Positions 21,429-29,537 of a DNA stretch of 64,000 nt are shown here, in pieces (the stretch's first letter is position 1; every line of letters starts with the position of its first letter). The notes below the pieces were generated by a model. The model saw nothing but the letters and a program-made list of their open reading frames with translations. It made no database searches and had not been told where the DNA came from. The stretch covers positions 141,078-205,077 of the forward strand of contig JAKVBF010000012.1 in the NCBI GenBank assembly GCA_022447555.1, written 5' to 3'. The stretch is from Mariniblastus sp. (lineage in GTDB: Bacteria; Planctomycetota; Planctomycetia; Pirellulales; Pirellulaceae). A program made the translations under genes and the position numbers.

Positions 21429-22133
21429 TTACTTTTTGTCGTTGTCTTCATCATCAAAGGAAGGACGTTGAGGTCGGCCGTTGCCACCGGGGCCACCCCC
21501 ACGACCTCCGGGACCACCTCGCCCGCCGCCGGGGCCACCACCTCGACCACCTCGACCACCTTCACCACCACGACCCATCATCTGAGAGAAGTCGGGAGAC
21601 ATTTCTTCCATTGAAATTTTGCCGTCGTTGTCCTTGTCTAATTTTTTGAGAGACTTGGCGGCGACCTTAATTTCATCCGCTGAAATTTCGCCGTCTTTAT
21701 CAATATCTAAAATGATAATGATTGGCATCATGGCCATGATTCGTGAGGCACCGCCTCCGCGTCCACCACCGGGTCCACCGCCGGGTCCTCCGCCGGGTCC
21801 ACCACGTCCACCGCCGGGTCCTCCACCGGGTCCTCCACCGGGTCCACCGCCGGGTCCTCCACGTCCACCGCGACCACCTTGAAGCCCGGACATCATAGCC
21901 TGAGCTTCGTTCTTGGTGACAAAGCCATCCTCATTGGCATCCATGCGATCAAAGGCGGCAGCCATCCGGCCAGAGACTTCATCTTTGGCTAATTTGCCGT
22001 CTGAATTCTTATCGTTTTCAAACATGCGGTCAATCATTTGATCGGGACTGAATCCACCTCGCCCGCCTTCTTGTGCATCGGCGTGAGCTATTAGCATGGC
22101 TAAAGTTGCTACGACCATAAGTGCTGTTTTCAT
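21429..22133 (-). CDS. Secreted EF-hand protein with Gly/Pro/Arg-rich linker
   Basis: 234 residues from ATG 22133, which yields a clean signal peptide (MKTALMVVATLAMLIAHADA|Q); the upstream extension of the frame has no such feature. Four EF-hand loops are visible: DKNSDGKLAKDE, DANEDGFVTKNE, DIDKDGEISADE and DKDNDGKISMEE. Pairs 1-2 and 3-4 are separated by a low-complexity GGPGGG/GGRGG linker, with another Gly-rich tail before the C-terminus. Likely an exported calcium-binding protein of unknown role. Downstream of the DUF4956 gene with a 93-base gap, so possibly co-transcribed; followed by a strong terminator. Confidence 0.85.
   Translation of the reverse strand: MKTALMVVATLAMLIAHADAQEGGRGGFSPDQMIDRMFENDKNSDGKLAKDEVSGRMAAAFDRMDANEDGFVTKNEAQAMMSGLQGGRGGRGGPGGGPGGGPGGGPGGGRGGPGGGPGGGPGGGRGGGASRIMAMMPIIIILDIDKDGEISADEIKVAAKSLKKLDKDNDGKISMEEMSPDFSQMMGRGGEGGRGGRGGGPGGGRGGPGGRGGGPGGNGRPQRPSFDDEDNDKK
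21760..21880 (-). repeat. 12-base tandem repeat coding for Gly-Gly-Pro-Gly-type linker
   Basis: About ten imperfect copies of a 12-base unit (plus strand ccgggtccaccg / ccgggtcctccg) inside the EF-hand gene, encoding the GGGP/GGRG linker. Such arrays change length by slippage, so the linker length may vary between strains. Confidence 0.85.
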
Positions 22134-22226
22134 CGCGATTTCTTTCGTTAGGTTGTGAGGCCACTCTAAGGGTGGTTGGTTGCTTAAGTTAATGTCGTCT
22201 GCTTGTTTCGTGTCGGCCAATTCCGG

Positions 22227-22892
22227 TTATACCTTATTGATCGTGGAGTCTCCGTGATCGGGAGGCATAGGGTTTGGGTCGTTTGGATGTAGCGTTTGGG
22301 TTTTATAATAAATAACAATTTGAGCGAGCTGTTTTTTTAGATCAATCCGTTTAATGTCGACTTGATTGATATCGAGCCCCGTCCGAAGGCGCAGGTCGCT
22401 GATCAAATCACCTCGTCTTTCTGGTCGCAGTAAATCGAGCTTGTCATAGATGATAGACCGGAAGTCCGCGATTCTGCGCGACCAACTTCTCTCCATCAAG
22501 AGGGTGATTACAAAGATGGCGCTGTTGACGTACAGCAACTCGGCATAGCTCGTTTGTTTATTAGAGAGGGCGTTGATGACTGCCAGTCCAATCACGATAA
22601 AGAGGTAGGTCATCTCTTTTACCTTAATGGAATTGGTTCGGTAGCGAATGATGGCAAAAATGGCGAACAACCCAAGTGCCATTCCCAAGCCCAAATCCAA
22701 TTTCTTCAAGGTGAAGCAGATGAAGAAAACCATAATGTTCATCAAGATGAACATGAACACATAGTTCATTCGCTTTTGATCGGGTTTGTAAGCAACCCAA
22801 ACAACCAAAATCGTAAACAGAAGGTCGAACGCCAAGCGAATATTGAGCTTGAACAGATCATCGTCAAATAAAGGGACTTCCAGAAATTCCAT
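22227..22892 (-). CDS. DUF4956 integral membrane protein
   Basis: 221 residues from ATG 22892, which is preceded by AGGA at good spacing; the longer frame would start at TTG 23003. Four or so membrane helices lie in the first 140 residues (LAFDLLFTILVVWVAY, MNYVFMFILMNIMVFFICF, LGMALGLFAIFAIIRYRT, YLFIVIGLAVINAL). The RYRTNSIKVKEMTYLF segment, which marks DUF4956, follows helix 3. The C-terminal 90 residues are cytoplasmic-like. In other bacteria DUF4956 genes often sit with CotH or VTC/polyphosphate-polymerase genes; here the neighbour is an EF-hand protein. Function unknown. Confidence 0.85.
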   Translation of the reverse strand: MEFLEVPLFDDDLFKLNIRLAFDLLFTILVVWVAYKPDQKRMNYVFMFILMNIMVFFICFTLKKLDLGLGMALGLFAIFAIIRYRTNSIKVKEMTYLFIVIGLAVINALSNKQTSYAELLYVNSAIFVITLLMERSWSRRIADFRSIIYDKLDLLRPERRGDLISDLRLRTGLDINQVDIKRIDLKKQLAQIVIYYKTQTLHPNDPNPMPPDHGDSTINKV

Positions 22893-23078
22893 TAGTTCCT
22901 GACCAAAATGTGAGGGAGTCTTAATACTATCTTTTAACCAATTATTCAGGGGTTGGTTTCGTGCGGTAGAAGCTAAAGGGGCCAAATTGTTAACAATACG
23001 CAAAAAAGCACAATCTTTTCGCGGTTTTCATGTTGTTTCTTACTGAAGTGGTTCGCTTGCAAAAACAGCGAGCAAGGG

Positions 23079-25036: not shown

Positions 25037-25202
25037 TGGGTTATCGGAAAATAATTGATGGGGCCTGATATAATGGATGACTCCCGGCGTTGGTCTCTCT
25101 ATATTATTATCCTGATTTTTAGTCGTTGAGATCCATTCCCTAATTGATCGCGGTGCCGGAAAAATCTCTGTGCAACGCGGGTATGACGAAGGAAGAACTG
25201 TG

Positions 25203-27440
25203 ATGTTGAACTACCTGACGCGACGCGATCTGATCTTGGGCTGTCTGTTGCTGACGACTTTGGCGATTGGGCCAGGCGCTTGGGCTGAGGAACGCCCTAA
25301 TATCCTATTCATCATGTCAGACGACCACGCGGCTCATGCCATCGGGGCTTATGGTGGACGGTTGGCCGGGTTGAATCCGACCCCAACCCTAGATCAGCTG
25401 GCCTCAGAGGGAGTGTTGTTGGAAAACGTATTTTGCACCAACTCGATCTGCACTCCTAGCCGAGCGACGATCATGACGGGGCAATATTCGCATGTGAATG
25501 GCGTGACGACACTCAATGGATCGATTCAAGCCAAACAGCAGTATCTACCGCGACTGCTGAAGCAAGCAGGGTACGAGACAGCCATGATTGGCAAGTGGCA
25601 CTTGAGAGCGGAGCCGGCCGAATTTGATTTCTACACCGTGTTGCCAGGACAGGGCTCGTATTTCAATCCCATCTTTCGTACTCGAGGCAAGCTTCCATGG
25701 CCCAAAAATGAAACGCGTTCAGCCAGCTACAACGCCAAACATTCTTCGGATGCAATTACGGATATCTCACTGAAGTGGCTCAAAAACCGCAAGCAGAAAG
25801 ACAAACCGTTTTTTCTCATGCATCACTTCAAAGCCCCCCATGATAATTTTGAGAACGCGGAACGCTACGACTTCCTATATGAGAATGACACAATTCCGGA
25901 ACCGGCTAGTCTGAGAGAACGCGGAAAGCACGGTCCTCAAGGCAAGCCGGCTTTTGGGACCTCTGTTGGAAAGCGAAATCAGCGACGTAACATGGGCGAT
26001 CACATGTTTGTGGAAGACTCTCTTTCGGATGAGGAGTATCAATCTAAAGCCTACCAGCGTTACCTGAAGAAATTCCTGCGATCAGTACGAGGTGTGGATG
26101 ATAACGTCGCTCGTCTGATTGACCACCTAAGGCGGACAGGCGAACTTGATAATACTGTGATCATCTACACGGCTGATCAGGGATTCATGCTGGGCGAACA
26201 CGATTATATTGACAAGCGCTGGATGTACGAAGAATCGTTGCGAATGCCTTTTATCGCGCGCTATCCGGCGCAATTCCCGGCCGGGAAAACGAGTGACGCG
26301 ATCATCAATAACGTCGACTTCGCCCCCACTTTGTTGGATATTGCCAGAGTGGAACCCCCAAAGTCTATGCAAGGCCGAAGCTTTCTTGCGATGTTAAAGG
26401 GCCAGCCTGAACCGTCTGGTTGGCCTCAAGCTTCTTATTACAGGTACTGGATGCATATGGCGCATCACGATAACCCGGCGCATTTTGGTATCCGGACCAA
26501 AGATCACAAGCTGATCCATTTTTATGGTCTACCGTTAGATGCTCCCGGGGCTCAACCGCAGCCTACCGAACCCTATTGGGAATTTTATGATTTACGAACG
26601 GATCCTAACGAAATGAACAACCTGATCGAGGATCCGCAACAAGCTTCAACGGTTCAGCGTTTGAAAGAGGAGCTGGCACAACTACAAGCCCGAGTGGGCG
26701 ACTCATTTGATCCCCCGCAAGAACTTGAGCCCGAAGATTTTTTCCCAGATCAGTCCCAATTACCGGCGGCGGTTCCCCGTGAGGGCATTGTGTTGCTGGG
26801 TCCCAAGACCAATCGATTTACCGGGCGTAATGGGACTGAGGTGGATTGGCCTATTGAGTCAGGGGTGGCCACATCGACCCCTGGGGGAAGCAACTTCAAC
26901 CACATCCTTTCCCAAGTTCATTTTCGGGATGCGGACATTCATGTGGAATTCATGTTGCCCGAAAAAGGGCCGGGCAACAGTGGGATTTATATTCACGGGA
27001 ACTACGAACTACAAATCCTGAATACGCATAACAAATCCAAGATTACGATGGATGATATGGGAGCTTTGTATGGATTCCAGCCGGCATTGGTCAACGCTGC
27101 TAAGCCCCCGGGGCAATGGCAGGTTTACGATATTCGGTATCGGGCGCCACGACGGGGGGAGGATGGCGAAATTATGAAGCCGGGCTCGGTCACCGCGTTT
27201 CTGAATGGCGAGAAAGTCCAAGACCGAACTCAATTTAAAGAGCCACGATCCTCTTTCCACCCCTATCGTCATGGTGTGACGGACTATCTGAGACAAATCG
27301 GTCAACGCCAGAAGCAGACTTCGGTGGGGCCGGTATTCCTGCAAGATCACAACAATCCAGTGAAGTTTCGGAATGTATGGATCGTCCCCTTAGATGATCA
27401 AAGTAAGGAATACGATCCAGGGGCAGTCTCGACTGATTAA
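25203..27440 (+). CDS. Secreted sulfatase fused to DUF1080 (3-keto-disaccharide hydrolase-type) domain
   Basis: 745 residues from ATG 25203, preceded by AAGGAAG at good spacing; it gives a signal peptide ending AWAE|E. The sulfatase domain covers about residues 30-480: Asp40/Asp41 (FIMSDDHAAH), formylglycine motif Cys83 (ICTPSRATIMTG), and late site YTADQGFMLGEHDYIDKRWMYEE (in parts). Residues about 530-735 are a DUF1080 jelly-roll domain (HILSQVHFRDADIHVEF, GNSGIYIHGNYELQIL, GPVFLQDHNNPVKFRNVWI). The fusion suggests that desulfation and binding or cleavage of the same glycan are combined in one exported enzyme. Substrate unknown. Confidence 0.92.
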   Translation: MLNYLTRRDLILGCLLLTTLAIGPGAWAEERPNILFIMSDDHAAHAIGAYGGRLAGLNPTPTLDQLASEGVLLENVFCTNSICTPSRATIMTGQYSHVNGVTTLNGSIQAKQQYLPRLLKQAGYETAMIGKWHLRAEPAEFDFYTVLPGQGSYFNPIFRTRGKLPWPKNETRSASYNAKHSSDAITDISLKWLKNRKQKDKPFFLMHHFKAPHDNFENAERYDFLYENDTIPEPASLRERGKHGPQGKPAFGTSVGKRNQRRNMGDHMFVEDSLSDEEYQSKAYQRYLKKFLRSVRGVDDNVARLIDHLRRTGELDNTVIIYTADQGFMLGEHDYIDKRWMYEESLRMPFIARYPAQFPAGKTSDAIINNVDFAPTLLDIARVEPPKSMQGRSFLAMLKGQPEPSGWPQASYYRYWMHMAHHDNPAHFGIRTKDHKLIHFYGLPLDAPGAQPQPTEPYWEFYDLRTDPNEMNNLIEDPQQASTVQRLKEELAQLQARVGDSFDPPQELEPEDFFPDQSQLPAAVPREGIVLLGPKTNRFTGRNGTEVDWPIESGVATSTPGGSNFNHILSQVHFRDADIHVEFMLPEKGPGNSGIYIHGNYELQILNTHNKSKITMDDMGALYGFQPALVNAAKPPGQWQVYDIRYRAPRRGEDGEIMKPGSVTAFLNGEKVQDRTQFKEPRSSFHPYRHGVTDYLRQIGQRQKQTSVGPVFLQDHNNPVKFRNVWIVPLDDQSKEYDPGAVSTD

Positions 27441-27507: not shown

Positions 27508-28365
27508 CTACCGATCGTTGTTGCTTGGGTCAGTCGGTTGATTGCCGGACGGATCTGGATTGTTCGATTCGCGATCCGCCGCCCGTTTCTCGGCGGCCTG
27601 AACGGCGTCTTGAGATAATGGGGGCTCGACGCCTGATTGCTTGAATTTGGACAGCCACTTTTCAGTGGCCTCCAATCCCGGCGCAAAACCCCACGGGCCT
27701 CGCTCGGCGGCAACCGCCAAGCGACCATCGGTTCGAACGAGAAACACGCGGTCTGGATGCGCTTGGTAAGCCAAGTTGACGCTGTTGTTCATGTTGTCGA
27801 TTAACATGGGCATTGTTAAGGACTTGTCATTGATCAGCATCTCCGCGGTCTGGCATCGCTCATTGTAGTTTTTATGTTCTTTGATGCCTAAGGATCTGCC
27901 GGCGCCCATAGGTCGAGGGCCGTCTGCCGCGTGGGCTTCGCGAATGTAAACCATTCGGAAATCAGCAACATCTTTGAACTCGTTGTACATTCGCTCCATA
28001 GAACCAACCTGGTTCAAAAAGGGAGGTCATGTGTAGCTACCAAAAAAGAGAATGACGGGTTTTTTAGACCGCAATGCAGCCAAGTGGGTCTGCGATTTTC
28101 CATCCAAAGATTGGAGCTTAAAGTCGGGGGCTTGCTCTCCCACCATTAAACGGTTGGCGTCGGACTGGCCACGTCCTCGGCCCCCTCCTCTGTCGGGTCG
28201 ATTGTTACGATTGCCCTGCCGATATCGCTGCTTAAAATCGGAACGCTCTGCTGGCTGGTTATCTTGCTTTTGAGTTTCTTGCTTTTGAGTTTCTTGACCG
28301 GAAATCTCGTTCCCGTTAGGGCTCAAAGCAAACGCGAGCACGATGCAAACAAGGGATTGCTTCAT
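27508..28365 (-). CDS. Predicted selenoprotein: iodothyronine-deiodinase-like thioredoxin-fold protein with in-frame UGA (Sec113)
   Basis: I read one 285-residue gene through an in-frame TGA at 28029-28027. The N-terminus (ATG 28365) is a signal peptide (KQSLVCIVLAFALS), then a Gln/Arg/Gly-rich linker, then a redoxin start (GEQAPDFKLQSLDGK). The stop falls exactly in VILFFGSYT-TGA-PPFLNQ, which aligns with the vertebrate deiodinase active site FGSxTUPPF. The following frame continues the same fold: DVADFRMVYIREAHAADG, MPMLIDNMNNSVNLAYQAHP and GPWGFAP. Translation resumes in the same frame, and a SECIS-like hairpin follows the TGA. Likely a periplasmic or extracytoplasmic selenol redox enzyme; iodine chemistry is not shown. 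Downstream of ctaA by 170 bases. Alternative: a gene broken by a nonsense mutation, less likely given the motif. Confidence 0.88.
27994..28029 (-). promoter_or_regulatory. Bacterial SECIS-like element and recoded UGA
   Basis: Minus-strand order: TGA (28029-28027), lower stem CUCC (28025-28022), internal loop, upper stem GAACC (28015-28011), loop AGGUU (28010-28006), GGUUC (28005-28001), UAU, GGAG (27997-27994). The apical loop begins 16 bases after the UGA and has G at its second position. This fits the known bacterial SECIS rules and resembles the AGGU loop of E. coli fdhF. Confidence 0.8.
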
Positions 28366-28535: not shown

Positions 28536-29537
28536 CTAAGGCGTTCGACGTTGCCTGCCAGTGGATCCCACTCGGAGGATCCAGTGCCAAGTGACTGCCA
28601 GTAGGACCGCCGTAGTTCCTACATGCAAGACTTGGACGACTTGGAAAACGGCAATGTGAGCCAGCACGATTCCCATCAGCATCATCGCCACCACCATTCC
28701 AAAGATCAGCTTTGGCTCAACGACCCGCAAGCCGTCGGTCCTTCGGGAGAACCACAAGATCAGCCCTGAGGTAATCAGAAGGGTCCATGAAAAACTACGA
28801 TGCACTTTGTAAATGATTGTTGAACCAAGTTCCCCGATCCACTCCTCTCGGTTCAACTCACCAGCTGCTTTTGCCAGTTCATCTGTTTGCTCCCGGACTT
28901 GACTACCCAATAAGCCTTCTGCAAAGAGGCAAGAAAAAAAGAGCAGGGAAACGGTCATCAACGTTCGCCAGTCCTTGGCCCCCAGTTTCCTGTAACCTGC
29001 ATCGGGTCGTGATAACCAGATGATTGTCACGAGCAAGGTGATCAAGAGAAAAGCCAGAGCCATATGAAGCGTGATGATGCCGGGTTGTAGCCCGCTGCGT
29101 ACAACGATCGCCCCCATGATGGCGTTGAAGAGCACGTCGATCAAACTGAGCCAAGCCAGCAAGATGATCCATCCTTTGTGCTTTTTAGCGGTAAATGAAA
29201 ACAACGCTAACAAAAGAGAGGCTAATCCCAATGGCAGTGAGGTCAAGCGATTAATAAATTCAATCCAAGTGTGGACCGGGTCAAAGCTATCCAGAATCGT
29301 TTCTCTCGTGATCGAGTCAGGGTCGATACCTTTTCGCGCTGCATGTCGTTTGAATTTATCCAGGTCAAGTTTATCAACGTCGATTTGATCAACATGAGTT
29401 GGCGGGATCAAACGTCCCCAACAGGTGGGCCAATCGGGACAGCCCAAACCAGAACCGGTTACGCGGACGGTGGCGCCGACCAATACGAGAATGGTTACCG
29501 AGATCAGGGCAATCCAGGCGAGACGATTGACGATCAT
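28536..29537 (-). CDS. ctaA: Heme A synthase, COX15/CtaA family
   Basis: 333-residue polytopic membrane protein converting heme O to heme A for cytochrome c oxidase. Eight helices are visible. Conserved segments: GATVRVTGSGLGCPDWPTCWG with its paired cysteines, VHTWIEFINRLTSLPLG (heme-ligand His in the helix), IITLHMALAF, YKVHRSFSW and QVLHVGTTAVLL, i.e. the four heme-binding His positions. It starts at ATG with no evident Shine-Dalgarno. The selenoprotein gene follows 170 bases downstream on the same strand; a common transcript is possible. Confidence 0.93.
   Translation of the reverse strand: MIVNRLAWIALISVTILVLVGATVRVTGSGLGCPDWPTCWGRLIPPTHVDQIDVDKLDLDKFKRHAARKGIDPDSITRETILDSFDPVHTWIEFINRLTSLPLGLASLLLALFSFTAKKHKGWIILLAWLSLIDVLFNAIMGAIVVRSGLQPGIITLHMALAFLLITLLVTIIWLSRPDAGYRKLGAKDWRTLMTVSLLFFSCLFAEGLLGSQVREQTDELAKAAGELNREEWIGELGSTIIYKVHRSFSWTLLITSGLILWFSRRTDGLRVVEPKLIFGMVVAMMLMGIVLAHIAVFQVVQVLHVGTTAVLLAVTWHWILRVGSTGRQRRTP

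Follow-up and report, generated by a model that had tools for sequence, protein, structure and literature searches.

The vertebrate iodothyronine deiodinases are membrane-anchored in the form of mouse DIO2 (9h48) and DIO3 (4tr3), and roles in deiodination have been described for the relay residues Glu160, His162 and His182 of DIO2 and for its Arg226 (PMC11592359). A bacterial deiodinase-like selenoprotein is also known from marine metagenomes, as the preliminary description of this DNA noted. As far as the accessible parts of the reports go, the Sargasso Sea study of 2005 holds 4 selenocysteine (Sec) and 6 cysteine sequences (PMC1088965), and one reading of a table row in the 2008 Global Ocean Sampling study, which lists no motif there, gives 22 Sec and 21 Cys sequences (PMC2398784). 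Reviews of 2022 and 2026 list the protein with a UxxC motif and, in the same accessible parts, give no tested function (PMC9312934, PMC13188914). Here we describe a variant of these reported proteins, encoded at 27508..28365 (minus strand) in a 64,000-nucleotide stretch of Mariniblastus sp. DNA (GCA_022447555.1, contig JAKVBF010000012.1; the window). Its sequence, the content of its genome and a structural model make it almost certain that the gene encodes a selenoprotein of the iodothyronine deiodinase family. It shares with the marine proteins, so far as those sources describe them, the Pfam family, the occurrence of Sec and Cys forms and a reported bacterial selenocysteine insertion sequence (SECIS), but it differs from the UxxC of the reviews in having UPPF, a cysteine in helix alpha-3 and a wide radiation within one phylum. 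Our literature search, judged in part by titles and the beginnings of abstracts, found nothing tying such proteins to planctomycetes or EF-hands; the main text of a paper on planctomycete selenoproteins (PMC4807772) does not contain the word deiodinase, though its supplementary tables may list one.

When TGA is translated as Sec (U), the gene gives a 285-residue protein with a single U, at residue 113 within VILFFGSYT-U-PPFLNQ, after which it continues as ADFRMVYIREAHAADG. The coordinates, the Sec reading and the deiodinase relation put forward in the preliminary description are borne out, with the strand now assigned as minus; frame 1 of the plus strand across the same interval holds several stops. 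As that description also said, the standard code splits the gene into two open reading frames (ORFs) at the TGA, one of 169 residues starting at a TTG after it and one of 187 residues starting at a TTG well upstream of the signal peptide. The read-through translation matches the T4_deiodinase profile PF00837 strongly (116 bits against a gathering score of 27, E 2.2e-33), over residues 71-240, a stretch that spans the TGA. Among solved structures, mouse DIO2 and DIO3 come nearest in sequence, and they are likewise the best structural matches of an AlphaFold2 (AF2) model of residues 69-250 (confidence, pLDDT, 97). AhpC-TSA (39.9 bits) and Redoxin (28.7 bits) profiles match the same stretch more weakly, as a common fold would lead one to expect. 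The deiodinase family model NF038285 of NCBIfam aligns to residues 75-230 with 146.8 bits, below its 250-bit cut-off, and its positions 1-177 find no match in the window protein.

Relatives conserve the reading frame and the TGA. A search with PF00837 gave hits in 17 of 196 genomes from the order (15 above cut-off) and in 118 of 392 from the phylum (115 above cut-off), and the window protein as query (E <= 1e-12) matched 44 of 396 genomes from the order. We fetched 120 homologue regions, leaving out phylum matches below about 73 bits unless they were taken with the order set. Of 127 aligned domain rows, a few of them partial or doubtful (L124, L146, L176 and L095 second rows), 109 have U in the TGA column, 17 have C and one has a gap; a column almost wholly U or C is the signature of Sec replaced by Cys in some copies, and about five to six Sec-Cys changes are needed on the tree. 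Alignment A1 (108 rows plus the window protein) keeps 109 full-length domains, 98 with Sec and 11 with Cys, after removal of 14 rows shorter than 145 residues, which comprise partial rows together with the L110, L111 first domain and L113 paralogues, of the near-copies L153, L096 and L162, and of two irregular rows, L109 and the L154 second domain. Alignment A2 comprises 112 proteins plus the window protein, 8 of the 120 trimmed proteins being excluded, and NF038285 matches all 113 at E <= 1e-4. The nearest kin, with TGA in the same place, come from the same genus (G703), the same family (G715), the same order (G009, G003) and G211; among relatives the frame, the TGA and the sequence beyond it are conserved. 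The same-genus homologue (L195) shares 28 of the 40 residues downstream of the TGA, and the 40 codons differ at 8 first, 5 second and 21 third positions, the pattern of a protein under selection. The window clade was found in six genomes; of nine other listed genomes of the genus, six have more distant matches alone (51-120 bits) and three none at E <= 1e-12. One copy from the same bacterial family (L108, G176 C74) is broken by a TAG and may be a decaying gene. A further scan of genome contigs turned up two loci from named genomes, Sphingomonas horti and a Verrucomicrobiales metagenome-assembled genome. Within the phylum, up to five deiodinase matches occur in one genome (G253).

The cell is equipped to decode the codon. 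Counting only matches above curated cut-offs, the source genome (4.19 Mb, 62 contigs, 97.5% complete) holds selA (569 bits), selB (358 bits), selD (273 bits) and a tRNA-Sec (68.6 bits against a gathering score of 47; called tRNA-SeC, tca, by ARAGORN), the four genes that the preliminary description proposed looking for; in control genomes, matches below cut-off appeared in 14 of 14 for the tRNA, selB and selD searches and in 4 of 14 for selA. Neither of the outcomes named there as refuting the idea, a genome devoid of Sec machinery or close relatives in which frame, TGA or downstream conservation breaks down, was obtained. The selD lies at the C-terminal end of a 733-residue open frame (L022:1393-3894, minus) that by eye resembles an NADH-dehydrogenase/SelD fusion. 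Among the 392 genomes of the phylum, 116 have a listed deiodinase match and 96 at least one TGA copy; selA is present in 89 of these 96 and in 151 of the remaining 296 (Fisher 4e-15), a tally of 240 once six weak selA rows are excluded, the search's own count above cut-off being 239. Twenty genomes have non-TGA matches only. Nine of them lack selA, seven of which are 99-100% complete; six of these seven were shown to carry Cys, and the seventh (G490) was not fetched.

A hairpin directly 3' of the UGA, the presumed SECIS, was scored as the best hairpin with its loop centre 17-26 nt from the UGA start. The mean score is 14.3 in 109 Sec genes and 9.2 in 17 Cys genes, against 8.6-9.9 at seven downstream offsets, and among 78 Sec genes scoring at least 11 the loop contains G in 76 and GG in 56. 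For a fixed stem running from pair 15-29 to pair 19-25, the fraction of paired cells is 61% across 110 Sec sequences and 38% across Cys sequences; 500 column shuffles gave 50%, with a maximum of 54%, sliding the stem partner by -4 gave 56% and the remaining slides 34-49%. Relative to synonymous recoding, the mean z is 1.73 in Sec genes (109 of 110), 0.19 in Cys genes (16 of 17) and 0.09-0.17 at three offsets. By the Sec-versus-Cys and synonymous-codon controls, the hairpin looks selected as RNA family-wide. The G-bearing apical loop of bacterial SECIS elements is seen across the family and weakly in the window gene alone. Compared by eye with L196, stem pairs 15-29, 16-28 and 17-27 of the window are changed on both sides with the GGU loop kept; in L195 and L160 the loop is GUA, about five bases further along. 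The window hairpin presumably resembles the loop of the E. coli fdhF SECIS. Unlike that of the vertebrate genes, it lies within the coding sequence.

The N-terminal features named in the preliminary description, a signal peptide and a Gln/Arg/Gly-rich linker, stand when judged by eye, and the signal peptide takes the place of the vertebrate membrane anchor. Signal-like N-termini are also present in L097, L102, L160 and L195, and a simple hydropathy rule applied to guessed starts finds an N-terminal hydrophobic stretch in 93 of 120 trimmed homologues. L097 and L195 have a similar linker, and L160 has by eye an apparent PDZ tail. EF-hand_1 occurs in 54 of 113 proteins, the window protein not among them. 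More broadly, EF-hands are frequent in the deiodinase-like proteins of the phylum (loci L074-L193), with PDZ domains in a few.

At the active site, FGSYTUPPF corresponds to the vertebrate FGSxTUPPF, with Sec at the N-end of the active-site helix. The proton relay is complete: S110, T112, Y140, E143, H145 and H164 correspond to DIO2 Ser127, Thr129, Tyr157, Glu160, His162 and His182, a set kept in full by the window protein and seven other domains among the 109. Residues proper to the vertebrate enzymes are missing: Ala146 stands for Pro163 and Pro204 for Phe224 (Pro in 109 of 109 domains), and there is no Trp at the Trp167 place; three of six window-clade members have one a residue later. The protein also lacks the Cys at U-2 that DIO3 has and any Cys at the distal Cys site. 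Past the signal peptide, Cys171 is its sole Cys besides Sec, and a second Cys in helix alpha-3 is near-universal in the family. Two Sec copies, L093 and L165, read SCTU, which puts a Cys at U-2 like that of DIO3, and lack the one in helix alpha-3. Compared with the atypical 2-Cys peroxiredoxin Tpx, the window protein carries Sec where Tpx has its peroxidatic Cys, lacks the Pro at -7 and possesses the deiodinase relay.

These features suggest a working scheme. The UGA would be decoded by SelA, SelB, SelD and tRNA-Sec with the aid of the hairpin. In the cell envelope the Sec113 selenolate would then attack an oxidised or electron-poor substrate, with a proton supplied by the deiodinase-type relay and an acidic group of the substrate possibly held by Arg206 and Arg222. 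Cys171 may free Sec113 by forming a Sec-Cys bond, which an envelope thiol carrier would reduce. The function probably differs from that of the animal thyroid-hormone enzymes and is a redox role outside the cytoplasm. A peroxide is the likelier substrate, at about an even chance; the fold, a second Cys like that of Tpx, the many paralogues and the repeated Cys replacement favour it. The statement as a whole, of an exported Sec enzyme of the deiodinase family with a Sec-Cys cycle acting on a peroxide, we regard as evenly balanced. Several observations weigh against it. Cys171 lies two turns of the helix away from position 177/178, where the family usually has its Cys; the alpha-3 Cys is missing in 4 of 109 domains and also in rows outside A1 (L110, L111 first domain, L113 and L109). 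The peroxiredoxin motif is PxxxT/SxxC, and only half of it is present here, with Ser at -3 and, at -7, Leu rather than Pro, as in 106 of 109 domains. Taken by itself, the hairpin of the window gene is weak (over 66 nt its z is -0.68, and 6 of 100 synonymous shuffles do equally well), seven of the 96 TGA genomes lack selA (all 67-92% complete), and selA is present in 11 of the 20 genomes with non-TGA matches only.

The rival that survives best is a reductive dehalogenase, which would act in the envelope on small phenolic acids, taking off their iodine or bromine by genuine deiodinase chemistry through a selenenyl halide, with a proton from the His/Glu relay. Because the relay is complete, including the His182 equivalent found in 8 of 109 domains, dehalogenation stays a rival, and Arg206, a further Arg at the DIO3-Arg275 position and the vertebrate-like FGSxTUPPF site also speak for it. 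However, the substrate-loop residues Pro163 and Trp167 are missing, Phe224, which covers Sec in DIO2, is invariably Pro, the His182 place is taken by Pro in 96 of 109 domains, so that the full relay is no requirement of the family, and no conserved neighbour gene indicates halogen chemistry. We consider this reading unlikely, and a halogenated phenolic compound as substrate similarly so. A Sec-containing envelope thiol-disulphide or similar thiol redox enzyme of the ResA/TlpA kind is somewhat more doubtful, since the UPPF site is neither CxxC nor UxxC and at +3 from the Sec column 94% of 126 rows have F and 2% have C. Less probable again is that the window clade performs true deiodinase-type chemistry on a halogenated aromatic outside the cytoplasm and keeps the ancestral active site of the animal enzymes, other bacterial copies having swapped the second His for Pro and become peroxidases. 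That the TGA is a genuine stop, and the gene a pseudogene or two proteins, would fit the weak hairpin statistics of the single window gene, but it is very improbable given homologues across the phylum that share the TGA with Cys as the alternative, the intact frame with selection downstream and the full Sec machinery. Reading of the TGA as some other amino acid has no point in its favour and is the most improbable of all, since the column's alternative is Cys, tRNA-Sec is present and TGA is an ordinary stop elsewhere, ending 8 of the 31 long non-overlapping ORFs of the window (the next in-frame stop lies 3-31 codons beyond in seven and 105 in one).

Table 1. Features of the selenoprotein gene (window positions).
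Feature	Position	Strand	Basis and remarks
Selenoprotein gene, 285 aa with Sec113	27508..28365	minus	ATG 28365-28363, stop TAG 27510-27508; translation, PF00837
In-frame TGA codon for Sec113	28027..28029	minus	Translation and domain alignment column
Apical hairpin of presumed SECIS, GAACC-A-GGU-U-GGUUC	28001..28015	minus	Starts 12th base past UGA; fold
Likely signal peptide, about residues 1-24, end not fixed	28294..28365	minus	By eye; clearer in L097, L160, L195
Gln/Arg/Gly-rich linker, about residues 25-70	28156..28293	minus	By eye; similar in L097, L195
Deiodinase (PF00837) domain, residues 71-240	27646..28155	minus	Pfam; AF2 model; structure matches
Glu143-Ala-His145, equivalent to mouse DIO2 Glu160, His162	27931..27939	minus	Alignment; Glu 108/109, His 109/109 domains
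His164, equivalent to mouse DIO2 His182	27874..27876	minus	Alignment; His 8/109 domains, Pro 96/109
Cys171, helix alpha-3, candidate resolving residue	27853..27855	minus	Sequence, AF2 model, alignment
Arg206, equivalent to mouse DIO2 Arg226 (substrate carboxylate site)	27748..27750	minus	Alignment

Gene order gives no substrate clue, as no neighbour is conserved. When 873 neighbour ORFs, drawn from 120 loci and the window, were compared all against all, no gene cluster occurred in more than 10 loci, and in a comparison with L205-L208 (L206 being a short contig) and L160 the deiodinase was the sole match. A heme A synthase gene adjoins the selenoprotein gene (28536-29537, COX15-CtaA 134 bits) and is mentioned in the preliminary description; a link between the two is rejected, since blastp found no homologue of it beside the same-genus copy or among the neighbour ORFs of the other fetched loci. 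The window also holds planctomycete cytochrome c and PSD domains, a sulfatase with a C-terminal 3-keto-disaccharide hydrolase domain (25170-27440, plus), and an EF-hand protein with a very long Gly/Arg/Pro-rich repeat (21429-22220, minus) adjoining a DUF4956 protein (22227-23003). In a quick tree of 122 rows, mouse DIO2 and DIO3 sit on a long branch with L093, L078 and L079 (support 94, or 72 in a 120-row tree without two long rows); holding them with the window clade in the 120-row tree raised the log-likelihood by 42 over the free quick tree, with two control clades also giving +31 and +18.

The same genome encodes a second Sec deiodinase-like protein (L010:649-2304, minus), also seen at L113, of about 544 residues with FGCLTUPPF, EF-hands near both ends and a PF00837 score of 28-33 bits. 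In the paralogue group to which it belongs (L110, L111 first domain, L113), the relay Glu is replaced by Leu or Val. Inspection by eye suggested a DsbD-like C-terminal part, but sequence searches of Pfam and the PDB did not find one.

A small exported form that keeps every vertebrate relay residue offers a handle on the role of this family before thyroid hormone, and the window protein bears on whether peroxides or carbon-halogen bonds are what the relay acts on. Our survey reveals a large reservoir of such selenoproteins in one bacterial phylum, about half of them with EF-hands, each of which is truncated at the UGA by a standard reading.
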